Positions 1,297-12,377 of a stretch of DNA of 15,154 nt are shown piece by piece (position 1 is the first letter of the stretch; each line of letters begins with the position of its first letter). This stretch comes from Candidatus Peregrinibacteria bacterium RIFOXYB2_FULL_32_7 (GTDB lineage: Bacteria; Patescibacteriota; Gracilibacteria; UBA1369; GWF2-33-10): NCBI GenBank assembly GCA_001787465.1, contig MFXJ01000009.1:1-15154 (forward strand), read 5' to 3'. The notes below the pieces were generated by a model. The model was not told the origin of the DNA and made no database searches. It saw only the letters and a list, made by a program, of their open reading frames with translations. The position numbers were made by a program, and so were the translations under genes.

Positions 1297-3396
1297 ATGG
1301 CTCTCTACATTTTCCTTTTCATCAGCGCAGTATTTAATGTCATCGTTGGATCAGTTATTGGAATTATTATATATTTGAAGGATAAAAAAAATGTAGTGAA
1401 TAGGACTTTTGCTGTTTTTTGTTTTTTTATTACTACTTGGTCAATGGGATATTTTTTCCCGATTGTTCAAAATAGCGAGTCTTTATCTCTTTTATCTTTT
1501 CGATTACTTCATGTCGGAGCGGCGTTTATTGCGGTTGCCCATTTCCATTTTGTGTGCGCAGTTTTGGATATTGTGAAAGAAAAGAAAAAATATATTATTT
1601 TTGCCTATCTTTTTAATCTTTTAATTGTTTTATTTTTTATTCCGACAAAGTTGTTTATCTCCGAAGTTGTACCTAAAGGAGATTTTAATTATTGGGCGAA
1701 TGTCGGCATAGCTTATAAAATTTGGCTTGCTGTCTGGCTTAGTTACGTAGTTGCTTCTGTATATTTGCTTTATGCCGCTTATAAAAAAACTAAAGGAATT
1801 AAGAAACAACAGATTAAATATATTTTGATTGGAGATATGATGACTTTTGGAACTGGGTCGATGAATTATTTTTTATTTTTTGATATTAACGTTACTCCAT
1901 ATTTAACGATTTTTGCTTCCGGACAAATGTTTTCGATTTTTTATATTATTGTTCGTTATAGATTTATTGATATTAAATTAAATTCTTTGGAAGTTTTGAA
2001 AAAAGTTTTTTCCATTATTTTGTCAGTTGTTACAGCTTATCTTATTTATACAATTTATTCTTTTTTCTTTCCTTTTTCAGCTAAATTAGATATTCCAACT
2101 ATTGTCGGCATAGCGATTCTGATAATTTTCTTTTTGATTTTTAATAATGTTGTTAGATTAAAGTTTTTTTATAATTTTTTTCGTTTATCTAATTTTGAAT
2201 ATTTTAAACAAACTGTTTTTGAGTTTAAAAATAGGAATAGTTTCTATCATAGCATTGAAGAATTTCAGATGAATATTAAAAAAACTTTTTGCGATAAATT
2301 ACAAATATCCTCAGCTTTTATTTTGATTTTAGATGAGGAAACGGGACGTAAATATCCTGAACTTATAAAATATTTTTTAAGAGATAAAAGTTTTTTGGTA
2401 ACCGAAGAACTGGAACTTGAGCAGAAAACTAGAAATAAAAAATTTTCTTTTTTTAAAGAACTTAAATCTTTAGGGAAAATTTGTTTCCCATTATTTTTTA
2501 AAAGCGAAAGGAATTTAATTGGGTTCTTTGTTTTAGGTGAGAAACCATTTCAAAATCCTTACACCAAAGAAGAATTAGAAGTTTTGGAATCAACAGCCTA
2601 TCAGATATCACTTTTTCTTGCCGTTATTCTTTATAATTTTGAGTTGCAAAAACAAGTAAAAATAAAAACTCAGGCTTTGAAAGAGCAGAATAAAGAAATG
2701 CAGAAACTGCTTCGTCAGCAATCAGATTTTATTGCTGTTACCGCGCATGAATTTCGAACCCCTCTTTCAATCGCTCTTTTTCAGCTTGATGATACGTTAA
2801 ATTCATCAAAAAATAATATTGATGAAACTGAAAAAAATGATTTGCAAATTATGAAAGCCTCGCTTGATAATTTGAAATCGTTAACGCAGAAATTATTTGA
2901 TGTTCAGCAGTATGATTTGAATAAAGTAAATGTAAAATGCGAGATAGTGAACATCGTTGAATTTTTGGAAAAAATTTATAAGGATTTTATAAATATAATG
3001 TCAGAAAAATCTATTAATTTACATTTTGTTAATAAAATAGAAGGTAAGTGTTATGTTAATATAGATAAATTGCAAATCCGTCAGGTTTTTCATAATGTTT
3101 TGAACAATGCTTTTAAATTTACGCCGAAAGATGGGACGATAGTGATTAAGCTTATTACTATAAATTCACATGTTTTAATATCTGTTTCTGATACTGGACA
3201 GGGTATTTCTGATACGGAAAGAGAACTTATATTTAATAAATTTCAAACAAAAAAAGCGTCTATGGCGATGGGAATTGGTTTAGGACTTTATATATCTAAA
3301 AAGATTATTGAACTTCATAAAGGCGAGATATGGGTTGAGAATGCGGAAATTGGTGGAGCAAAGTTTTGTATTAAACTTAAGATTAGTAATCGGTGA
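1297..3396 (+). CDS. Membrane sensor histidine kinase (N-terminal multi-TM, GAF-like, HisKA-HATPase)
   Basis: This is an integral-membrane sensor kinase of about 699 aa. The N-terminal ~290 residues hold seven to nine hydrophobic segments, like the 7TM sensor region of many histidine kinases. Residues ~300-450 look like a degenerate GAF-type domain, followed by a short coiled linker rich in K, Q and E. The H-box F-I-A-V-T-A-H-E-F-R-T-P-L-S places the phosphorylated His at about 484. The N-box contains L-N-N-A-F-K-F (catalytic Asn ~603), the G1 box D-T-G-Q-G-I starts at ~632 and the G2 box G-I-G-L-G-L at ~659. All catalytic motifs are intact. I chose ATG 1297 over TTG 1288 because it is the better start and directly precedes the first TM segment; neither has a Shine-Dalgarno. 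A receiver-only response regulator converges on it, and the two may form a pair despite opposite strands. The signal sensed is not visible. Confidence 0.9.
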   Translation: MALYIFLFISAVFNVIVGSVIGIIIYLKDKKNVVNRTFAVFCFFITTWSMGYFFPIVQNSESLSLLSFRLLHVGAAFIAVAHFHFVCAVLDIVKEKKKYIIFAYLFNLLIVLFFIPTKLFISEVVPKGDFNYWANVGIAYKIWLAVWLSYVVASVYLLYAAYKKTKGIKKQQIKYILIGDMMTFGTGSMNYFLFFDINVTPYLTIFASGQMFSIFYIIVRYRFIDIKLNSLEVLKKVFSIILSVVTAYLIYTIYSFFFPFSAKLDIPTIVGIAILIIFFLIFNNVVRLKFFYNFFRLSNFEYFKQTVFEFKNRNSFYHSIEEFQMNIKKTFCDKLQISSAFILILDEETGRKYPELIKYFLRDKSFLVTEELELEQKTRNKKFSFFKELKSLGKICFPLFFKSERNLIGFFVLGEKPFQNPYTKEELEVLESTAYQISLFLAVILYNFELQKQVKIKTQALKEQNKEMQKLLRQQSDFIAVTAHEFRTPLSIALFQLDDTLNSSKNNIDETEKNDLQIMKASLDNLKSLTQKLFDVQQYDLNKVNVKCEIVNIVEFLEKIYKDFINIMSEKSINLHFVNKIEGKCYVNIDKLQIRQVFHNVLNNAFKFTPKDGTIVIKLITINSHVLISVSDTGQGISDTERELIFNKFQTKKASMAMGIGLGLYISKKIIELHKGEIWVENAEIGGAKFCIKLKISNR

Positions 3397-3402
3397 TTTA
3401 TA

Positions 3403-3513
3403 ATACGTGATTCGTGATTCGAACAATTCATTCCTTTGGAATGAAACAAACGAACCATCCGCCTTCGTTTCACTACGGACGGACAGGCGAATCACGAACC
3501 ACGAATCACGTAT
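3403..3513. repeat. Intergenic inverted repeat between convergent kinase and regulator
   Basis: A perfect 14-bp arm at 3403-3416 (ATACGTGATTCGTG) pairs with 3500-3513. Further copies of GTGATTC (3414-3420) and GAATCAC (3489-3495) extend the arms imperfectly. The interior holds a small CATTCC/GGAATG hairpin (3429-3443) and the element GCCTTCGTTTCACTACGG (3461-3478), which recurs elsewhere in the window. On the + strand the right arm is followed by a T-rich run (3519-3527), so it may act as a terminator for the kinase transcript. The right arm touches the stop codon of the response regulator. It looks like a dispersed palindromic element and not like a coding sequence. Confidence 0.75.
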
Positions 3514-3887
3514 CACGTGTTATTTTTAAGTAATTCATCTAAAAATTTCACTAGTTCCGTTGGTGGAGTTTCTATCTTTAATAAATATTTATCAACATTA
3601 AAATTTTTAGCTTCTTCTTCTAAATGGAATTGATCGTAGTTTGAGAGAACAATTAATTTTGATTTTGGAAGCAGTTTTTTAATTTTTGGCGTTATATCTA
3701 AGCCGGATTTTTCATGACCTTTGATGGCATGATCAATTAATACGGCGTCGGCATTAAATTTTTTAGCTATTTCTTCTGTTTCTTCCGCTGTCTTCGTCCA
3801 AATAGTTTCATATCCAGCTAGGTCTAATCTTTTTTTATAAAGTCTTCCCAAAGCTTCTTCGTCTTCAAGTAAAAGAATTTTTTTCAT
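3513..3887 (-). CDS. Single-domain response regulator (CheY-like receiver)
   Basis: A stand-alone receiver domain of 124 aa with no output domain. It opens M-K-K-I-L-L-L-E-D-E-E, giving the acidic pocket E8-D9. The phospho-acceptor is Asp52 in the V-L-I-D-H strand, the conserved hydroxyl residue is Ser82 in I-V-L-S-N, and the conserved Lys is K104 in Y-L-L-K. The start is ATG 3887; a longer frame back to TTG 3941 would add 18 residues before the normal receiver start and would overlap the candidate -35 box. It has no Shine-Dalgarno. It lies downstream of the glycosyltransferase on the same strand, with a 94-nt gap that holds its own candidate promoter. It probably acts by protein contact or in a phosphorelay, and the neighbouring convergent kinase is the obvious candidate partner (inference). 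Confidence 0.9.
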   Translation of the reverse strand: MKKILLLEDEEALGRLYKKRLDLAGYETIWTKTAEETEEIAKKFNADAVLIDHAIKGHEKSGLDITPKIKKLLPKSKLIVLSNYDQFHLEEEAKNFNVDKYLLKIETPPTELVKFLDELLKNNT

Positions 3888-3912
3888 AATTTCATAAAAG
3901 TTAGCATAAAAA

Positions 3913-3941
3913 ATTTTAAATGAATTTCTTAAAAAACTCAA
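3913..3941 (-). promoter_or_regulatory. Candidate sigma-70-type promoter for the response regulator
   Basis: On the - strand TTGAGT (3936-3941) and TAAAAT (3913-3918) are separated by 17 nt. Transcription would begin near 3905, shortly before ATG 3887. This suggests that the regulator can be expressed separately from the upstream polysaccharide genes. AT-rich DNA gives false matches easily. Confidence 0.4.
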
Positions 3942-3981
3942 TGTTTATCAAAATTTTAAGATGTTTTGTAAAGCTTAATTT

Positions 3982-5067
3982 TTATATTTTTGTTATGGTT
4001 TTAAATTCATTGATAAATTTTTCTTTAGAGAATTTTTCTGCGTGTTTCGCAATTTTTTCAGCATCATATTTTTTTTCGTTTAAAATAAGCCTACCAAGTC
4101 CGTCTTCAATACTTTTTAAATTATTAGCATCAAAAAATTCTCCAGTTTCGTTTGGAATAATTGTTTCAAGAAGACCGCCTTTATTAAGTCCAAGCACAGG
4201 CTTACCACAGGCCATAGCTTCAACGGCTGTAATTCCAAAATCTTCTTCCCCAGGAAAAATTAAAGCTCGGCAATTTTGCATATATTCACTGACAACTTCA
4301 TCAGATTTGAATCCCAAAAATTCTATATTTGGGGCGGATATTTTTTGCAAATAATTTTTTTGTGGACCATCACCAATAATAATTAATTTTCGACCAATTT
4401 TATTAAATAATTTAATAGCGAGTTCGATGTTTTTGTACGGAGTTAAGGTTGATACAATGAGAAAATAATTTTGATGATTTTTTTGTATTTTAAATCTATT
4501 TAAGCAAACAGGCGGGTAAATAATTTTTGAATCTCTTTGGTAATATTTTTTTATTCTTTTTTGCACATTTCTTGAATTCGTAATATATAAATCAGCTCTT
4601 TTTGAAGCTAATAAATCCCATTGTCTAATTTGACTACTGAAATATCTTATTCCTGCATTTATAATTATATTTTTATTTTGTTCTTTTATGTATGGCTCTT
4701 TCCAATCCCAAATAGAGCGCATTGGTGAATGGCAATAGACAATATGTCTTGTTTTAAGTGGGGTGATGATGCCATGAGTAAAAGCTGAGCTTGAGCTTAT
4801 AACAAGATCATATTCAGAAAAATCCCATTCTTCTACGAAAGTATTTAAAATAGGGAAAAAATATTTATATTTATTTTTTATAAAATTTGGTAATGTTTGT
4901 AATTTTGAAAATTTAATTTTATTTTTGGGAAAAATTTCGCCAACTTTTTTTTCATCATAAAGTAAAGTGTAAATAGGAGCAGAAGGAAAAATTTCGCAAA
5001 GAACTTTTAGAACTTTTTCAGCTCCACCAAGCCTGTTAAGGAAATCATGGACAATAGCGACTTTCAA
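3982..5067 (-). CDS. GT4-family glycosyltransferase (GT-B fold)
   Basis: A retaining GT-B glycosyltransferase of 361 aa, predicted to be cytoplasmic or membrane-associated and to use a nucleotide-sugar donor. The N-terminus K-V-A-I-V-H-D-F-L with the loop L-G-G-A-E-K-V is the typical acceptor-domain start of this family. The C-terminal donor domain has Y-F-L-I-V-S-T-L-T-P-Y-K-N at about 200, L-I-I-I-G-D-G-P-Q, and the E-x7-E signature in E-D-F-G-I-T-A-V-E-A-M-A-C-G-K-P-V near 275-290. The length is normal and the gene is complete. The start is TTG 5065-5067, chosen because the family pattern begins exactly there and no in-frame ATG lies nearby. It follows the Wzy-like gene by 25 nt on the same strand, so it probably belongs to an envelope or capsular polysaccharide operon. 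The sugar and acceptor cannot be read from the sequence. Confidence 0.9.
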   Translation of the reverse strand: MKVAIVHDFLNRLGGAEKVLKVLCEIFPSAPIYTLLYDEKKVGEIFPKNKIKFSKLQTLPNFIKNKYKYFFPILNTFVEEWDFSEYDLVISSSSAFTHGIITPLKTRHIVYCHSPMRSIWDWKEPYIKEQNKNIIINAGIRYFSSQIRQWDLLASKRADLYITNSRNVQKRIKKYYQRDSKIIYPPVCLNRFKIQKNHQNYFLIVSTLTPYKNIELAIKLFNKIGRKLIIIGDGPQKNYLQKISAPNIEFLGFKSDEVVSEYMQNCRALIFPGEEDFGITAVEAMACGKPVLGLNKGGLLETIIPNETGEFFDANNLKSIEDGLGRLILNEKKYDAEKIAKHAEKFSKEKFINEFKTITKI

Positions 5068-5092
5068 GATAGCAAGAGATAGAAAATAGAGG

Positions 5093-6436
5093 TCAATACA
5101 ATTTATTTGTTAAACTTAATAGTGTGAATAAAGTCAGAACAGTACTCGAATCTTCGAAACTATGTAAAAATAAAGCTGATATTGATAAACCGCAAAGAGC
5201 GATGGTGAGATAAAGTTTAGAAAGTTCTACTACGTTAAGGCTTCGAAGAATAAATTTAGAAAGTGTAGTTTTTAAATTCGAATAAATTATTGTTACTAAT
5301 ACTACGATAAATAAAATCATAGCCATTATTCCCATTTCAACGCTAATTTGCAAATACCAATTCTCGGTAATAATAGCAGGAGAATTGTCATTTTCAAATC
5401 TATATGAAGCAGGTCCAGCTGTTCCTAAGCCAAGTCCAAAAGGATGATTTTTTATAGTTTCTAAGCCTAGGAATAAAGCTGAAAAATGCTCTGAAGTTGA
5501 TTCTGGTTTTGTGATCCTCTGAAAAAGCTCTGAATTTGTTTTTAAAATTCCAATAAAAATTATTGCGATTAGAATTGCTGATAAGAGAGAAAATATTGCT
5601 GATTTTTTCAAATTAAAGTTTGAATATTTTTGTTTCAGAAATATTATTGATAGTAGTAAAATCTCTATAATGAAGCCTATCCATGCGCTTCTTGAAAAAG
5701 TTAGAAATAGACTTAAAAGAGCTGATATTATTATAAAAATCCAAATTTTTGATTTTTCCTGAAAAAATTTATAAAAAAGTAATGGCAAAATAATAATTAA
5801 ATATGCGCCATATTGATTTGGTCCAGCAAAAGTTCCAGATAAACGGCAGAAATCGCTATTCTCAATTTTTTGACAAAAAGCTAAAGCTTGATTTGCATAC
5901 CAGGTACTCCAATCATTTCGAAATCCAAAAAAAGTTAAATTTTCAGGATTAATAAGGAAAATTATCAAACCAAATATAATTGAAGCAGTAGCTGAATATA
6001 TAGCTATATTGAATAAAATTTGAATATTTTGTTTGTTAAAATTATTGAAGGTGAAAATCAAAAAAGTGATAAGGAAGAAAAAATCATATCGAAATCCGAA
6101 AAGCCACTGAGGAAAGCCAGAGGGAGGAGATGCCCAAAAATATGAACTTAGGCCGAAGATGATGTAGATAATGATTATATTCGTGATTTGCTTTGTTTGT
6201 TTGTCTGTAGTGAAACGAAGGCGGATGATTCGATTTTTAAGAAAATTTATTGAAAATAAGATGGCGATAATTATTATGAGAATCTCTTTCCAAGTTGTTA
6301 TAAAAAATCCAAGCTTTGGAATATTTTGTAAATTTAATCCGTATTTAAAGATAGTCGTTAAGATTGCATGAAAGGGAAGCCCAGCAAGAAGAAGAGCAGT
6401 GAGGTAAAAAGATACTTTGTTTAATGTTTTTGTCAT
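5093..6436 (-). CDS. O-antigen ligase / Wzy-type polymerase-like membrane protein
   Basis: A polytopic inner-membrane protein of about 447 aa with roughly ten to twelve hydrophobic segments. It carries Wzy_C-type features: F-S-R-S-A-W-I-G-F after a TM pair, then a large loop with H-P-F-G-L-G-L-G-T-A-G (about residue 330) and W-Y-L-Q-I-S-V-E-M-G before the last TM group. Family members polymerise lipid-linked glycans or ligate them to acceptors outside the membrane. I prefer ATG 6436, directly before the first TM segment. ATG 6514 overlaps the comF stop (ATGA) and would add 26 residues of low-complexity, intergenic-looking sequence; the AGGAG before it is only one base away, too close to act as a normal ribosome site. 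A dispersed repeat is embedded in frame in an early cytoplasmic loop (see the repeat entry at 6180). The glycosyltransferase follows in the same transcript. Confidence 0.85.
   Translation of the reverse strand: MTKTLNKVSFYLTALLLAGLPFHAILTTIFKYGLNLQNIPKLGFFITTWKEILIIIIAILFSINFLKNRIIRLRFTTDKQTKQITNIIIIYIIFGLSSYFWASPPSGFPQWLFGFRYDFFFLITFLIFTFNNFNKQNIQILFNIAIYSATASIIFGLIIFLINPENLTFFGFRNDWSTWYANQALAFCQKIENSDFCRLSGTFAGPNQYGAYLIIILPLLFYKFFQEKSKIWIFIIISALLSLFLTFSRSAWIGFIIEILLLSIIFLKQKYSNFNLKKSAIFSLLSAILIAIIFIGILKTNSELFQRITKPESTSEHFSALFLGLETIKNHPFGLGLGTAGPASYRFENDNSPAIITENWYLQISVEMGIMAMILFIVVLVTIIYSNLKTTLSKFILRSLNVVELSKLYLTIALCGLSISALFLHSFEDSSTVLTLFTLLSLTNKLY
6180..6232. repeat. Copy of the dispersed palindromic repeat inside the polymerase gene
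   Basis: Positions 6207-6232 match the reverse complement of 3451-3476 at 25 of 26 bases. The similarity continues more weakly through 6180-6206, where the other copy has C and this one mostly T, and where a TTTG-rich expansion is present. The gene stays open across it. On the - strand it encodes a basic, polar stretch containing R-L-R-F-T-T-D-K-Q-T-K-Q between two TM segments. Confidence 0.75.
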
Positions 6437-6510
6437 CAGTTGAATTGTAGATGAAGGAAAGAAAGAAGGAAAGAATGAAAAATTAATAATTGGTAATTGA
6501 GGTGAGGGTA

Positions 6511-7209
6511 TCATTCTCCTCTTCCAATCACTACAGCTACCACTTCTATGGCACCTGCTGTTTTAAGCATTTTCGCGCATTCATTTAATGTCGTTCCAGT
6601 TGTTGCGATATCGTCAATAAGAATAAATTTTTTGTTCAATGCTTTAATTTTGTCTTCAATTTGAAAGGCGTTATGAAGATTTTTCAGCCTTAAATCCCTA
6701 TCGAGTTCAGCTTGTGATTTTTGATATTTTATTCTTTTGATTAAATTTTTATCAATAAAAATTTGTAAATTTTCAGATATAGTATCGGTCAAAAGTTCAG
6801 CTTGATTGAATCCTCTCCATTTTTCTTTTTTAAGGTGAAGAGGAATAGGGATTAGAATATAGTTTTTATAATTTTTGATATATTTTCGAATCGTATCGCT
6901 TAAAAAATCTCCCAAAAATTTATTTAAATCTTTAATAAATCGATATTTAAAAGTTTTAATTACTTTTTGAATTAAATGTTCTTTTTCATATTTTGCCGCT
7001 ACTAATAATTTATCGAAATAAATTTTTGTATTTTGACAATTTCCGCAAAGATTTCCTTCGGTTTTGGTTTTTTTACAATTAGGACAAATTTGATATTTTT
7101 GAAGATGGATTTTATTTTGACAATTTTTGCAAATCCAAACGCTTTCTTGGTTACAACCTAGGCATTGAATGGGAAAGAGAAGATTTAAAAAAATAGATTT
7201 TAAATTCAA
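6511..7209 (-). CDS. ComF-family protein (zinc-finger plus phosphoribosyltransferase-like domain)
   Basis: A 232-aa protein with four CxxC pairs in the first 60 residues (C16/C19, C27/C30, C42/C45, C55/C58), typical of the double zinc-ribbon start of ComF proteins. A phosphoribosyltransferase-like domain follows, with the W-R-G-F-N-Q-A-E-L motif and the PRPP-binding signature I-L-I-D-D-I-A-T-T-G-T-T-L (D199-D200, G205). ComF relatives support uptake of single-stranded DNA in natural competence, probably at the inner face of the membrane; the biochemical reaction is not settled. The start is TTG 7207-7209, inferred from the usual short N-terminal helix before the first Cys pair. Its stop overlaps a possible upstream start of the Wzy-like gene. 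A candidate promoter lies inside the end of the neighbouring island. Confidence 0.9.
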   Translation of the reverse strand: MNLKSIFLNLLFPIQCLGCNQESVWICKNCQNKIHLQKYQICPNCKKTKTEGNLCGNCQNTKIYFDKLLVAAKYEKEHLIQKVIKTFKYRFIKDLNKFLGDFLSDTIRKYIKNYKNYILIPIPLHLKKEKWRGFNQAELLTDTISENLQIFIDKNLIKRIKYQKSQAELDRDLRLKNLHNAFQIEDKIKALNKKFILIDDIATTGTTLNECAKMLKTAGAIEVVAVVIGRGE

Positions 7210-7233
7210 CAGTATTATTTTTTGAAAATTTAA

Positions 7234-7245
7234 AATGGTGGGCCA
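7234..7245. repeat. Left copy of the 12-bp direct repeat bounding the R-M island (attachment-site-like)
   Basis: AATGGTGGGCCA here is identical to 11957-11968, where it forms the 3' end (with CCA) of the tRNA-Ile2 gene plus two flanking bases. The unit is GC-rich within AT-rich DNA, so a chance match 4.7 kb away is unlikely. It marks the distal end of the presumed integrated segment. No other part of the tRNA is clearly preserved here. Confidence 0.7.
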
Positions 7246-7383
7246 AAAGAAACTCTACTTGAACTATATAAATATATAATAGAAAACTATGAAGAGTCAA
7301 TTTTGTTTAAAAATTCTTCATCGAAGTCTTTGGAAAGCATTAAACAGTTTACAGATCAAAACTCTATTGAGGTAAAAATGTGA
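7246..7383 (+). pseudogene. Start-less tail of an unrecognised gene at the left end of the island
   Basis: A reading frame is open from the direct repeat to TGA at 7381-7383. It gives about 45 residues beginning K-E-T-L-L-E-L-Y-K-Y-I-I-E-N and ending S-I-E-V-K-M. The composition looks protein-like, but there is no ATG or GTG start and no recognisable domain. The open frame runs back through the repeat (N-G-G-P) to a stop at 7231-7233. This is the same frame in which the DinD-like gene enters the right-hand repeat, so the two pieces would form one open frame in a circularised element. It may also be a random open stretch or the stump of another gene. Confidence 0.4.
7271..7300 (-). promoter_or_regulatory. 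Candidate outward-facing promoter for comF
   Basis: On the - strand TTGACT (7295-7300) is followed by TATATT (7271-7276, 18-nt spacer) or TATATA (7273-7278, 16-nt spacer). It points out of the island, across the left direct repeat, towards comF 60-70 nt away. The -35 box is close to consensus. The overlap with a possible gene tail on the other strand and the local AT-richness limit certainty. Confidence 0.4.
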
Positions 7384-7395
7384 AAAATATATAGT
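7367..7395 (+). promoter_or_regulatory. Candidate promoter for the R-M operon
   Basis: TTGAGG (7367-7372) and TATAGT (7390-7395) are separated by 17 nt. Transcription would start near 7402, leaving a leader of about 20 nt before ATG 7422 with no Shine-Dalgarno. Confidence 0.35.
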
Positions 7396-7421
7396 GAAGT
7401 AAACGCATTTTAAATTAAATA

Positions 7422-10400
7422 ATGAATTTAAAAGAATATATTTCTAACCTTACAAAGCATTATAATAGCAAAATAGCTACAGAGCATAGTTATAGAGGTT
7501 CTTTGGAAGATTTGATTAAGTTTTTAGTTTCGAATGTAAGTGTAACAAATGAGCCGAAAAGGCAGGCTTGCGGAGCTCCTGATTATATTATTGCAAAAAA
7601 TGAAATTCCTATAGCTTATATAGAAGCCAAAGATATCGGAGTGAATCTTGATGTTATTGAAAAAACAGAGCAAATAAAAAGATATATTCAGAGTCTTGAT
7701 AATATTATTTTGACTGATTATTTAGATTTTCGACTTTTTGTTGATGGTGTGAAAGTTTATAGCGTCAACATAGCTCATATTGAAAATGGAGTTTTGAAGG
7801 AAAATAGTGAGAATTTTGTAGCTTTTGAGAATTTGATTAGAGATTTTTGTTCGTATACAGGCAAAACAATCAAATCACCGTCAAAGCTTGCAAAAATGAT
7901 GGCGGACAAAGCCAAACTTATGCAGGAAGTTATATACAAAGCTTTGTTAATAGATGATAGCAAAAATAATTCACTTCAATCACAACTTGAAGCGTTCCGA
8001 AAAGTTCTTATTCACGATATGAAAGAAGAGGAGTTTGCTGATATTTATGCTCAGACAATAGCTTATGGCCTTTTTGCAGCTAGGCTTCATGATGAGACAA
8101 AAGATAACTTTTCAAGACAAGAGGCGGTGTTTCTTGTACCTAAGACAAATCCGTTTTTGAGACAATTATTCTCATATATTGCATGTCCTGATCTTGACGA
8201 GAGAATCACTTGGATAGTTGATGCTCTTGCTGATGTTTTCAGTTACTGCGACGTATCAGAAATTCTTGCAAGTTTCGGTGATTCAAAAGGAATTAATGAT
8301 CCGTTTATACATTTTTATGAAACATTTTTAAGTGAATATAATCCAAAATTGCGTAAATCAAGAGGTGTTTATTATACTCCTGAGCCTGTTGTGAATTTCA
8401 TTGTAAGAGTGGTAGATGACATTCTGAAAACAGACTTCAATTTACCTGCTGGACTTGCCGATACAACTAAAACAGAAATTACAGTTGATATTCAAGGCAA
8501 AAAAAAGAAAGAACTGGTTCACAAAGTTCAAATTCTTGATCCCGCTACAGGAACAGGAACTTTTCTTTGCGAGGTTGTGAAACACATTGCCAAACGCTTT
8601 GAAGGACAGGAAGGAATTTGGTCGGATTATGTGGAGAAAGAGCTTATGCCTCGTTTGAATGGCTTTGAACTTCTCATGGCTCCTTACGTTATGTGTCATC
8701 TCAAGCTTGATCTGCTTCTTACACAAAAAGGTTACAAGCCAAAGAATCCAGATCGTTTCAAAGTTTATCTCACAAACAGCCTTGAAGAAGCTCATCCTGA
8801 TACGGGAAGCTTATTTACAAGTTGGTTGTCAAATGAAGCTTCAGAAGCAAACACAATCAAAAGAGATGCTCCTGTGATGGTGGTGATAGGAAATCCGCCT
8901 TATAGTGTGAGTTCCAGTAACAAAGGAGAGTGGATTCTTGATCTTATAAAAGATTACAAAAAAGATTTGAATGAAAGGAAAATTAATCTTGATGATGATT
9001 ATATCAAATTTATTCGTTATGCTGAATATTTCATTGAAAAAAACAGACAGGGTGTAATTGCTATGATTACAAACAATTCATTTATTGATGGAATTACTCA
9101 TAGGCAAATGAGAAAGCATTTACTTGAGACTTTTGACCAAATTTATATTTATGATCTTCATGGAAACAGTAAGAAAAAAGAAATTTGTCCTGATGGCTCA
9201 AAAGATGAAAATGTATTTGATATTCAGCAGGGCGTTTCAATAAATATTTTTGTTAAGACATCAATTCCCAAGAAATTAGCAGATGTTTATCATTACGAGA
9301 GTTTTGGAAAGAGGGAAGTTAAATACAACAGATTAAATGAGGAAAATGTTTCTGAGATTAAATGGAAAAAATTAAATTATAAAGAGCCTTATTACTTTTT
9401 TGTACCAAAGAATTTTGAAGACATAAAGAATTACGAGCAAGGATTTAAAGTGAATGAAATATTTAAAAATTATAACTCAGGTATAGAGTCAGGAAAAGAT
9501 AATTTTATTATAAAAACAAATGAAAACGAATTAAGTCTTTTAAAAAGTGATTTACAGCTTTTAAATGAAAAAGAGTTATCAGAAAAATACGAAATTAGTA
9601 TTGATAAAATACAACAGGTTTTAGGAGATTTAAAAAATGCAAGTGAAGTAGTTATTTTATATAGACCATTTGATTTAAGGCATACATTTTTAAGTCCTAA
9701 TAGTGAGGGTGTTTTTTGGCGACCAAGATTTTCTATAATGAAACATTTTTTAAAAAGTAATCTTGGTTTTATTGCAAAACGAGGGTTTAACGAAGACGGT
9801 TCGGCACCAGTATTTATTACTAAATTTATATTTGATAGAAGAGGTTGGTCAAGACCAGGAATGCAAGGTGCGGAAAGTATTTTTCCTCTCTACCTCTACC
9901 CAGACCAACCCAAAGAAGACCTATTCCAAAACGAACAAATTTCACGCAAACCAAATCTAAATGATGAAATCGTCACTCAAATCGCAGAAAAAATAAAACT
10001 CCCATTCATCGAAGATTCAAAATTAGTTACAGAAGAAAACAAAGGAAAAGTATTCTGCCCTGAAGATTTGCTTGATTATATTTATGCAGTTCTCCACTCT
10101 CTAAGCTATAGAGAAAAATATAAAGAATTCCTGAAAATAGATTTTCCACGAGTTCCATATCCTGACAATACAGAAAATTTCTGGAAATTAGTTGAGAAAG
10201 GAAGAGAACTTCGAGCTTATCATCTTATGGAGCATCTTAATTTAAATAACTTCATTACTCGCTATCCTGTCGGCAGTGATAATTTGGTAGAGAAAGTGTT
10301 TTTCGAAGGATCTGAAATAGGTAAGGTATGGATAAATAGCACTCAATATTTTGAAAATGTGCCGAAAATATCTTGGGATTTCTATGTCGGAGGCTACCAG

Positions 10401-10538
10401 CCAGCCCAAAAATGGCTTAAGGACCGTAAAGGAAGGAATTTAAGCTTCGAAGATATAATGCACTATCAGAAAATAATAATTGCATTGAAGGAGACGGATA
10501 GAATTATGAGGGAGATTGATGAAATTGGTAATTTATAA
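7422..10538 (+). CDS. Single-chain restriction-modification enzyme (PD-(D/E)XK nuclease + N6-adenine methylase + specificity region)
   Basis: A fused restriction-modification protein of 1038 aa. The N-terminus has a Mrr-like PD-(D/E)XK site: G-A-P-D with D54, then I-E-A-K with E68 and K70. A helical linker leads to the gamma-type adenine methylase. This has R-G-V-Y-Y-T-P-E-P-V-V near 310, SAM motif I D-P-A-T-G-T-G-T-F at 373 and catalytic motif IV N-P-P-Y at 491-494. The C-terminal ~400 residues form the target-recognition part, with R-P-F-D-L-R-H-T and a conserved end around E-D-I-M-H-Y-Q-K. It resembles the methylase and specificity parts of type ISP enzymes, but there is no helicase/ATPase between nuclease and methylase, so it fits a type IIG-like design. 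ATG 7422 has no Shine-Dalgarno. The RhuM gene follows after 19 nt. GC content shifts sharply inside the gene (see findings). The recognition sequence is unknown. Confidence 0.9.
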   Translation: MNLKEYISNLTKHYNSKIATEHSYRGSLEDLIKFLVSNVSVTNEPKRQACGAPDYIIAKNEIPIAYIEAKDIGVNLDVIEKTEQIKRYIQSLDNIILTDYLDFRLFVDGVKVYSVNIAHIENGVLKENSENFVAFENLIRDFCSYTGKTIKSPSKLAKMMADKAKLMQEVIYKALLIDDSKNNSLQSQLEAFRKVLIHDMKEEEFADIYAQTIAYGLFAARLHDETKDNFSRQEAVFLVPKTNPFLRQLFSYIACPDLDERITWIVDALADVFSYCDVSEILASFGDSKGINDPFIHFYETFLSEYNPKLRKSRGVYYTPEPVVNFIVRVVDDILKTDFNLPAGLADTTKTEITVDIQGKKKKELVHKVQILDPATGTGTFLCEVVKHIAKRFEGQEGIWSDYVEKELMPRLNGFELLMAPYVMCHLKLDLLLTQKGYKPKNPDRFKVYLTNSLEEAHPDTGSLFTSWLSNEASEANTIKRDAPVMVVIGNPPYSVSSSNKGEWILDLIKDYKKDLNERKINLDDDYIKFIRYAEYFIEKNRQGVIAMITNNSFIDGITHRQMRKHLLETFDQIYIYDLHGNSKKKEICPDGSKDENVFDIQQGVSINIFVKTSIPKKLADVYHYESFGKREVKYNRLNEENVSEIKWKKLNYKEPYYFFVPKNFEDIKNYEQGFKVNEIFKNYNSGIESGKDNFIIKTNENELSLLKSDLQLLNEKELSEKYEISIDKIQQVLGDLKNASEVVILYRPFDLRHTFLSPNSEGVFWRPRFSIMKHFLKSNLGFIAKRGFNEDGSAPVFITKFIFDRRGWSRPGMQGAESIFPLYLYPDQPKEDLFQNEQISRKPNLNDEIVTQIAEKIKLPFIEDSKLVTEENKGKVFCPEDLLDYIYAVLHSLSYREKYKEFLKIDFPRVPYPDNTENFWKLVEKGRELRAYHLMEHLNLNNFITRYPVGSDNLVEKVFFEGSEIGKVWINSTQYFENVPKISWDFYVGGYQPAQKWLKDRKGRNLSFEDIMHYQKIIIALKETDRIMREIDEIGNL

Positions 10539-10557
10539 AATTTATAAAATTTGAATT

Positions 10558-11583
10558 ATGAATCAAAAATTAGAACTTTTTAATAACTTCGTCATTTTTC
10601 AGACATCTACTGGAAAAGTAAATATTGATGTATTTTTTCAAAATGAAACGCTTTGGTTAACGCAAAAAAAAATGGCTGAACTTTTTGAAGTCAATGTTCC
10701 TGCTATTTCCAAGCATTTGAAGAATATTTTTGAAGAAAAAGAATTGGATGAAAAAGTGGTTGTTTCCATTTTGGAAAACACCACTCAGCATGGTGCTATA
10801 AAAGACAAAACACAAATCACTATAAGCAAATATTATAATTTAACTGCTATTTTAGCCGTTGGTTATCGGGTGAATTCACATCGAGCAATAGAATTTAGAA
10901 AATGGGCAACAAAAATTTTACATGAATATGTGATTAAAGGATTTGCGATGGATGATGAACGATTGAAGCAGATTAAACATTTTGGACAGGATTATTTTGA
11001 CGAAATGCTTGAGCGGATTCATGAAATCCGAATGAGTGAGCGCAGACTTTACCAGAAAATTACTGATATTTATGCACTTTCAGCTGATTATGACAATCAA
11101 GCAGATATTACAAAACAATTTTTTGCTAGTGTACAAAATAAGCTTCATTTCAGCATAACAGGAAAAACTGCTGCTGAGATTATTTATAATGAAGCTGACC
11201 ATAGAAAGATTTTTATGGGACTGCAAACATGGAAGAACGTTCCACATGGCAAAATTTTAAAAAGTGATGTAACAATTGCCAAAAATTATTTAAATGAAGA
11301 GCATGTAAAAAAGTTGGAGCAGATTGTTTCGGCATATCTTGATTTGGCGGAAACAAGAGCGAGAAACAGTCAAATTATGAATATGAAAGACTGGGATGTT
11401 TTTTTGCAACAATTTCTTGAACTTTCCAACACACCAATTCTTACAAATTTGGGCAGGGTTTCTATGCTTGAAGCTAAGCTCAAAGCTGAGGCGGAGTATG
11501 ATAAATTTCGGGTGATTCAGGATAGAAGCTTTGAGAGTGATTTTGATAGGGTGTTGAAACAAATTGAATCTTCTAAGCCATAA
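10558..11583 (+). CDS. RhuM-family protein (DNA-binding, island-associated)
   Basis: A 341-aa protein matching the RhuM family along its length. The N-terminal part has the typical L-W-L-T-Q-K-K-M-A-E-L-F and V-P-A-I-S-K-H-L-K-N-I-F, which looks like a helix-turn-helix (about residues 32-58). K-Y-Y-N-L-T-A-I-L-A-V-G-Y-R-V-N follows, then the F-R-K-W-A-T motif shared with phage regulatory proteins. The C-terminal half includes A-K-N-Y-L-N-E-E-H and the L-T-N-L-G-R-V-S segment. The protein was named as virulence-associated in a Salmonella pathogenicity island, but its biochemical role is not established. Family members often sit inside or beside R-M loci. Here it lies between the R-M gene (19-nt gap) and the DinD-like gene (4-nt gap), so co-transcription is likely. 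A regulatory or anti-phage accessory role is inference only. Confidence 0.88.
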   Translation: MNQKLELFNNFVIFQTSTGKVNIDVFFQNETLWLTQKKMAELFEVNVPAISKHLKNIFEEKELDEKVVVSILENTTQHGAIKDKTQITISKYYNLTAILAVGYRVNSHRAIEFRKWATKILHEYVIKGFAMDDERLKQIKHFGQDYFDEMLERIHEIRMSERRLYQKITDIYALSADYDNQADITKQFFASVQNKLHFSITGKTAAEIIYNEADHRKIFMGLQTWKNVPHGKILKSDVTIAKNYLNEEHVKKLEQIVSAYLDLAETRARNSQIMNMKDWDVFLQQFLELSNTPILTNLGRVSMLEAKLKAEAEYDKFRVIQDRSFESDFDRVLKQIESSKP

Positions 11584-11587
11584 AATT

Positions 11588-11958
11588 ATGAACAATCAAG
11601 AAAATAAACTTGTTTTATTTCAATCAAAAAAGATTCGACGTATTTGGCACAATGAAGAATGGTTTTATTCTGTTGTGGATGTTGTTGAAGCCCTAACCGA
11701 TAGTCCTACGCCAAGACAATATTGGGGAAAGATTAAAAAGGGAATTTATCGATCTTCAGTTGTCCCCAATTTGGGTACGACTGAAATTTCCAATCAAGAA
11801 AAACCAAAAGCTATGATAGAACATACAAATGTAGCTAGACGTGGAGGAGTTGTTGCTGGAAATGCACGAAAGCAGGCGGAAAGTGAATTGGGACGAAGTG
11901 TGATTTCAAAAGAAAATTATCTACAAGATGGAATGAGAAAGCGATTGAAGAAGTCTAA

Positions 11959-11980
<22 letters not shown>
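11588..11980 (+). CDS. BRO-N/DinD-like protein, internally shortened; 3' end runs into tRNA-Ile2
   Basis: A 130-aa reading frame from ATG 11588, four bases after the RhuM stop. Residues ~10-45 match a BRO-type N-domain (I-R-R-I-W-H-N-E-E-W-F-Y-S-V-V-D-V-V-E-A-L, then P-R-Q-Y-W-G-K-I-K-K). From about 59 the sequence jumps to what is normally the far C-terminal part of DinD-like proteins: T-T-E-I-S, A-R-R-G-G-V-V-A-G-N-A-R-K, S-K-E-N-Y-L. Full-length relatives have about 150-200 residues between these blocks (my recollection of the family), so an in-frame internal deletion is likely and the protein may not function. The last ~7 codons lie antisense within the tRNA gene and look like read-through beyond the natural end (R-K-R-L-K-K). 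DinD relatives are DNA-damage-inducible proteins; the role here is unknown. It could be scored as a pseudogene. Confidence 0.7.
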
Positions 11981-12035
<55 letters not shown>

Positions 12036-12158: not shown

Positions 12159-12235
12159 GGACAATTAGCTCAGCTGGCTAGAGCGCATCGTTGACATCGA
12201 TGAGGTCACTGGTTCAAGTCCAGTATTGTCCACCA
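12159..12235 (+). tRNA. tRNA-Val (GAC)
   Basis: A 77-nt cloverleaf with encoded CCA: acceptor GGACAAT/ATTGTCC, D-stem GCTC/GAGC, anticodon arm CATCG-TTGACAT-CGATG with anticodon GAC, and T-arm ACTGG-TTCAAGT-CCAGT. All stems pair. The CCA end is also the first half of a hairpin arm in the adjacent repeat. Confidence 0.95.
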
Positions 12236-12287: not shown

Positions 12288-12312
12288 TGGCGTGCCATTC
12301 GTAGCTTTAGCG
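12288..12312. repeat. Direct repeat R2 in the tRNA spacer
   Basis: A 25-bp segment identical to 12344-12368, ending CGTAGCTTTAGCG. It contains the reverse complement of most of the R1 loop. Its flanks no longer form a clean hairpin. Confidence 0.75.
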
Positions 12313-12343
12313 TAAGCTGGTTAATTTATGATGCTAAAATATA

Positions 12344-12377
12344 TGGCGTGCCATTCGTAGCTTTAGCGAAGAATGGC
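12344..12377. repeat. Direct/hairpin repeat R3, built on the CCA end of tRNA-Gln
   Basis: 12344-12368 repeats R2 exactly. GCCATTC (12350-12356) pairs with GAATGGC (12371-12377), and the latter overlaps the last four bases (GCCA) of tRNA-Gln on the - strand. Read in the tRNA-Gln direction the loop is TTCGCTAAAGCTAC, the same loop as R1 read in the tRNA-Val direction. Confidence 0.75.

Follow-up and report, generated by a model that had tools for sequence, protein, structure and literature searches.

How did a block of restriction and other defence-associated genes come to lie directly against the 3′ end of a tRNA gene, and which type of recombinase placed it there? In the window (i.e. the whole analyzed stretch of 15,154 nucleotides, containing zero N), an integrative element had been predicted from the letters alone, bounded by a 12-bp direct repeat. 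This repeat, AATGGTGGGCCA, was found as exact copies at 7234-7245 and 11957-11968. The right copy lies at the 3′ end of the intact tRNA, as originally described, with 10 of its 12 bp being tRNA sequence (TGGCCCACCA) and 2 bp lying outside. The 4.7-kb segment 7246-11956 is very probably an integrated mobile island. Its features and immediate surroundings are:

6511-7209, minus strand: comF, chromosomal flank beyond the far side of the island (name taken from the original prediction and domain make-up)
7234-7264, plus strand: putative distal attachment junction (chromosomal half-site B plus element half-site P′), with core AATGGTGGGCCA at 7234-7245 and TTGAAC at 7259-7264, 14 bases past TGGTGGGCC
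7234-7380, plus strand: 49-codon open frame, starting exactly at the left core (NGGPKETLLELYKY...)
7422-10538, plus strand: type IIG (ISP-like) restriction-modification (RM) gene, 1038 aa, assigned by PADLOC, Pfam, and motif patterns
10558-11583, plus strand: rhuM (PF13310; PADLOC candidate PDC-S05), 341 aa, full length
11588-11980, plus strand: dinD-like remnant (PDC-S13), an open frame whose final codons run antisense into the tRNA (NGGPSWT, then stop)
11957-11982, plus strand: putative proximal attachment junction (P plus B′), with core at 11957-11968 and T-loop TTGAAC at 11977-11982, 9 bases past TGGTGGGCC
11959-12035, minus strand: intact tRNA gene with CAT anticodon, the putative target site
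12159-12235, plus strand: tRNA-Val(GAC), chromosomal flank

The defence and island-type content expected between the repeats was recovered, consisting of the type IIG RM gene, rhuM, and an internally deleted dinD. For the RM protein, PADLOC returned REase_MTase_IIG with 1060.7 bits. Pfam matches over the cut-off were PF02384 (N6_Mtase), PF07669 (Eco57I), and PF18135 (Type_ISP_C), and an HSDR_N nuclease match was slightly below. Pattern matches comprised a PD-(D/E)xK-like motif at residue 53, DPATGTG at 373, and NPPY at 491. Nuclease, methyltransferase, and specificity regions are fused in this one protein, as in the type IIG layout. Both the RM gene and RhuM apparently are intact, and the RM protein may be active in restriction. 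A close RhuM relative (83% identity) in the protein database is labelled Candidatus Gracilibacteria. For dinD, 31 homologous loci were searched, of which 28 matched both ends and three gave no match pair. Compared with these 28, the gene has an internal deletion of 459-477 bp that is in frame overall; against the two homologues with the highest C-terminal identity, the deletion is 474 bp (about 158 codons). This gene is probably dead.

The 49-codon frame could be the C-terminal tail of a gene that spans attP in the circular form. It had no match beyond its own genome among the 89 genomes of the order, none in phages or the protein database, and in Pfam just a weak PBECR3 match under the cut-off. 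The tail was absent from the 24 C-termini of dinD homologues compared, a point against a gene spanning attP.

Two further ideas about the gene content were discarded. RM, rhuM, and dinD do not form a fixed cassette, as a rhuM match (E≤1e-6) was found in 0 of 20 RM loci. A preference of dinD for tRNA sites was also dropped: a tRNA was present in the fetched flanks of 5 of 30 dinD loci, near our own rough expectation. In one case (L092/L125; G030, 14642-15548 of L125), the dinD 3′ end adjoins the 3′ end of a tRNA-Pro in the manner seen in the window; no repeat of at least 8 bp was found there.

Scanning the whole window for AATGGTGGGCCA with one mismatch allowed gave just the two copies, while shuffled sequences contained 0.03 copies on average under the same scan and reached two in 0 of 200 cases. 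The genome's own assembly (1,111,106 bases in 116 contigs, 74% complete) contains these two exact copies and no others. In a post hoc comparison, the 212-bp gap between comF and the RM gene was subjected to 20,000 dinucleotide shuffles; no shuffle gave a 12-bp match to the tRNA tail, and six gave an 11-bp match. Nevertheless, 111 different 12-mers are present more than once in the window, and the 12-mer pair alone is weak evidence. It exceeds chance because of the arm beside the left copy. As the boundary of the element, the 12-bp repeat was borne out as the shared core of both junctions, while the informative part turned out to be the arm.

In the CAT tRNA, the T-loop hexamer TTGAAC lies 9 bases past TGGTGGGCC. 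Four relatives (G013, G067, G059, and G075) carry genes of large serine recombinases (LSRs) that run into the 3′ end of the CAT tRNA, and the far end of each element repeats TGGTGGGCC. At the far ends, the spacing from TGGTGGGCC to TTGAAC is 14 bases in the window, G013, and G067, and both 14 and 16 bases in G075. Divergent arms read TCGAAC after 13 bases in G059 and TAGAAC at the same offset in a second copy in G013. A spacing of 14 bases in the far arm versus 9 in the tRNA places the attP motif 5 bp further out, and the window shows this outward displacement of the T-loop hexamer. For the LI integrase, the accessible part of Rutherford et al. (2013; PMC3783163) places the zinc-ribbon motif at positions 16-24 of the attP half-site and 5 bp nearer the centre in attB. 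The proximal arm on the dinD side had, by eye, no clear likeness to the ends of the relatives' LSR genes.

The displacement was then measured at 30 of 46 LSR-tRNA loci, namely those with at least 500 bp upstream, using each locus's own core and T-loop hexamer. A shift of +5 was found at 6 of the 30 loci, any other shift between -10 and +15 at one locus at most, and a shift of 0 at none. Since G013, G067, and G075 had prompted the test, half of these six are not independent. The new cases are (i) G041 at a tRNA-His, where the +5 place lies ~100 bp from the 22-bp copy of that locus; (ii) G044 at a tRNA-Ser; and (iii) G059:C13, at a second place whose core has a mismatch. The criterion used detected no +5 arm at the other 24 loci, where either the arm has diverged or the far end is outside the fetched DNA.

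Searching the 353 genomes of the class for TGGTGGGCC-N{10,20}-TTGAAC yielded six exact matches in five genomes, i.e. the window's own (G000), G067, G075 (two), G013, and G049. All six lie on a contig with a CAT tRNA, within about 11 kb of it, and N equals 14 in five matches and 16 in one. The reversed pattern had two matches. As the motif was built post hoc from the window, G067, G075, and G013, G049 is the one new independent match, and the independent result is the motif's specificity.

Across the order, PF07508 had 69 listed places in 44 of 89 genomes; 60 were fetched and nine omitted, and the stop codon lay inside the DNA in 57. At least 43 of these 57 LSR genes overlap a convergent tRNA 3′ end, a floor given that the 130-nt overlap limit misses at least one deeper overlap (G058:C26, tRNA-Ser). 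A tRNA lies within 100 bp of 46, counting three intron-split CAT genes found by BLAST. The other 11 had no tRNA within 100 bp under the rule used, among them the more deeply overlapping G058:C26. The tRNAs concerned were those for Trp, Leu, Thr, Ala, Ile2/Met-CAT, Ser, Cys, Asn, Pro, Gln, Gly, Val, His, and Arg. All eight LSR genes at a CAT tRNA stop inside it at offset -21, as does the window's dinD frame (11959 to 11980), an agreement that chance would give for one frame in three.

A tree of 58 LSRs places five of the Ile2 enzymes (G059:C13, G013, G002, G067, and G075) in one cluster with support 100/100. The other three enzymes at CAT tRNAs (G042, G084, and G011) fall outside this cluster, with a long branch for G042. 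On this tree, three changes are needed for the Ile2 label and 29 for all 15 labels ('none' included), versus a shuffled mean of 40.9 (0 of 200 shuffles as low), indicating that targets cluster yet changed repeatedly. No close relatives of the G067 LSR were found in viral contigs.

From these data, a broader picture appears reasonably likely. Most LSRs of this order would use tRNA 3′ ends as attB, and their zinc-ribbon would read the T-loop, which would allow retargeting among isotypes (14 amino-acid labels). The tRNA would supply the last codons and the stop of the LSR gene, and the islands would shuttle restriction systems among other cargo, with the window as one that lacks the recombinase gene.

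Cargo was compared among six annotated LSR islands with a partial ORF scan; restriction systems were detected in three of them and in none of the other three. These are (i) G067, with Eco57I-type and MmeI-type methyltransferases, ResIII, and a PD-(D/E)xK nuclease; (ii) G042, with a Bse634I-type nuclease, Vsr, and a piece of a C5-methylase; and (iii) G044 at a tRNA-Ser, with type III mod and res as well as a PF00589 integrase. Among otherwise unassigned ORFs, the remaining islands carry RelA/SpoT and YaaC (G075), a primase-polymerase and a subtilase (G041), and a small terminase (G013). A further locus, L105 (Peribacteraceae), encodes a Fic protein and a relative of the window's RM protein, the best segment being 56% identical, and has an LSR frame ending inside a tRNA-Arg. 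It resembles the window in the type IIG RM family, the tRNA 3′ end, and a gene reading into the tRNA, but differs in having the LSR and the Fic protein; rhuM, dinD, and the far end were not found there.

The target tRNA itself was analyzed at 49 loci, hand-picked as the best matches to the window's tRNA with G010 omitted, and followed for up to 18 kb downstream. Seven of them (G034, G009, G013, G049, G050, the window, and G020) had a downstream repeat that spans the tRNA 3′ end and is 11 bp or longer; none of the valid controls (reverse strand and upstream, the upstream stretches often being shorter and the G049 upstream value excluded) reached 11 bp. Some of these repeats are probably due to chance, e.g. 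that of G020, which sits within an ORF. The longest repeats of G049 and G022 resemble other tRNA ends. A convergent LSR gene lies directly downstream of the CAT tRNA at four of the 49 loci (G011, G042, G002, and G013).

Several arrangements at this tRNA were observed besides. At L247 (G049:C70), four copies of TGGTGGGCC lie at 0, 395, 2036, and 3011 bp from the CAT tRNA, together with a 417-aa ORF that looks SEC-C/nuclease-like by eye. At L135 (G050), the CAT tRNA is separated from a 12-bp copy of its 3′ end by a 1.2-kb segment with two small ORFs. The genomes G049 and G050 both lack a PF07508 match; having the motif and no PF07508 match, G049 is a second case without an LSR. A group I intron (Rfam RF00028) splits the CAT tRNA between nt 34 and 35 at L211 (7313-7549), L215 (4775-4986), and L218 (5753-5962), and according to the BLAST list this tRNA is split likewise in more relatives. 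TGA read-through was seen in members of the class; along with the Gracilibacteria label of the RhuM relative, it suggests that the genome belongs to the Patescibacteria.

ARAGORN labels the CAT tRNA as Met; we infer that it is the lysidine-type Ile2. In the window, comF and tRNA-Val(GAC) enclose the island and this tRNA. A comF match was found in 56 of 59 genomes (own included). The tRNA-Val(GAC) is divergent from and near comF at 6 of 17 relative loci scanned (out of 29 fetched), and near but co-oriented at two more of the 17, with orientation read by eye. That the two genes are neighbours in relatives and flanks in the window makes an insertion plausible by synteny. In G001, the sole other genome of the same family among those listed, the tRNA is identical (77/77) and lies beside a tRNA-Val, without a downstream repeat of at least 11 bp. 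There, a typA-like gene follows the CAT tRNA, and comF is found on another contig by a dnaA-like gene (names assigned by eye). With comF and the tRNA on separate contigs in this sole same-family relative, it offers no base-level empty site; neither such a site nor a circle was seen in the genomes compared. Two observations concern the same neighbourhood: a short direct repeat (GGCGTGCCATTCGTAGCTTTAGC-like) lies between tRNA-Val and tRNA-Gln at 12288-12370 of the window, and at L286 (G013:C33) an LSR gene and the tRNA-Val 3′ end overlap on the comF contig of G013, giving another island site in the region corresponding to the window's.

Might the 12-bp pair have arisen by chance, or as a target-site duplication when transposition or recombination placed defence genes by the tRNA? 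The many recurring 12-mers of the window would fit such an origin, as would the tRNA-downstream repeats of relatives that are probably fortuitous, like the one inside an ORF in G020. We consider it extremely unlikely: motif and arm together gave only six matches in 353 genomes, all beside a CAT tRNA, and tRNA-end repeats of at least 11 bp occurred at seven of 49 loci and in no valid control. It is also very improbable that an Xer/IntI-like tyrosine recombinase inserted the island at the tRNA 3′ end in the manner of classical genomic islands. A search for such an enzyme had been proposed with the original prediction, and the genome does encode two elsewhere, on contigs C2 and C50; in G003 and G052, the CAT tRNA has a related integrase at distances of 71 bp and 1.2 kb, respectively. 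But the repeat includes no more than the final 10 bases of the tRNA, the +5 spacing of the far arm is that found beside the CAT tRNA in LSR elements, and the C2 enzyme is followed by integron-like repeats, none of which were seen by eye at the window's edges. The relatives and the arm indicate a large serine recombinase in place of a tyrosine recombinase.

The C2 enzyme belongs to an arrangement of its own. At L127 (G000:C2, 919-5855) and L144 (G052, 1933-10716), a tyrosine recombinase is followed by an array of small ORFs with intervening repeats that we take to be attC. These arrays look like a chromosomal integron, and the integrase had a match at E≤1e-40 in 46 of the 89 order genomes, own included.

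The absence of an integrase noted originally agrees with the island's ORFs, which include no LSR, and PF07508 had no match in the available 74% of the genome. A variant compatible with the LSR explanation holds that the island never had such a gene and is a satellite-like or accretion segment that used a resident LSR element at the same tRNA. We regard it as a tentative possibility. It is favoured by the tandem array in G013, where an LSR element precedes a 1-kb segment with another att copy at its end, by the G049 array with its cores at the four positions given above in a genome lacking a PF07508 match, and by the end of the dinD frame, which falls within about two codons of the core and leaves no LSR trace. 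However, in the sole relative found with both the RM family and an LSR (L105), the LSR is inside the island, and loss of an LSR is indistinguishable from original absence in one genome.

Taken together, the window most likely holds a CIME-like defence island of the LSR type that lacks a recombinase gene and preserves attL and attR. At the level of sequence, this is supported by both junctions, the shared core, the +5 spacing, and the relatives' LSR genes at the same tRNA. An integrative element that is defective or moved in trans, as first suggested, is consistent with the recombinase-bearing relatives that share the far-end motif at this tRNA. In the proposed mechanism, an LSR of the Ile2 type would join a circular element (attP) to the tRNA 3′ end (attB). 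The tRNA would retain its sequence (P-B′ junction, 11957-11982), while the comF side would gain the other attP half (B-P′ junction, 7234-7264). The zinc-ribbon would read TTGAAC in both sites, as the T-loop in attB and displaced outward by 5 bp in attP. Subsequently, the LSR gene may have been lost; alternatively, in line with the tandem arrays of G013 and G049, the island may have relied from the start on a resident LSR element. Lacking the gene, the island would be a CIME-like remnant or a satellite, mobile only if a matching LSR acts in trans.

If the broader picture is true, these enzymes form a serine family that acts systematically on tRNA 3′ ends and follows a simple rule, a T-loop hexamer placed 5 bp further out in attP. 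This would explain how small genomes gain defence islands without tRNA loss, make islands without an integrase recognizable by their ends alone, and provide a source of LSRs with predictable, widely shared targets. A marginal-looking 12-bp repeat can be resolved via the arms of relatives.

Among the papers listed by open-access keyword searches, no title or opening of an abstract described a tRNA-targeting LSR family or such islands in Patescibacteria, and 'tRNA' was not found when the main text of PMC10083194, the LSR discovery paper, was searched for this word. For Mycobacterium abscessus, the accessible part of PMC10654092 reports that 16 of 23 attB sites of tyrosine integrases overlap with tRNA or tmRNA genes and that the named serine-integrase islands lie elsewhere. 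In the accessible text of the literature compared (PMC4701971, PMC10654092, and PMC5704250), tyrosine integrases are the ones that use tRNA sites, and insertions by serine integrases lie elsewhere.

A CIME has lost its integration and transfer genes and kept attL and attR (PMC5704250, accessible part). The window likewise keeps attL and attR without an integration gene at a tRNA 3′ end, and this tRNA is a hotspot with tandem accretion in relatives. The two differ in that the window fits the att/integrase part only, decay from a conjugative or mobilizable element not being part of the fit, and in the integrase type indicated, which is serine instead of tyrosine. Streptococcal serine-integrase elements in rumA have their core inside the 3′ part of the integrase gene, and integration swaps the C-terminal codons (PMC4701971, accessible part). 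The core within the 3′ end of the integrase gene is common to both systems, whereas the streptococcal target is a protein gene and the targets here are tRNA genes of many isotypes. LSRs of the LI/A118 type (PMC3783163, accessible part) share the short core and a distal motif that is displaced by 5 bp in attP relative to attB, and the relatives' enzymes combine PF00239, PF07508, and PF13408; here, in contrast, the target is a tRNA 3′ end and the motif is the T-loop.
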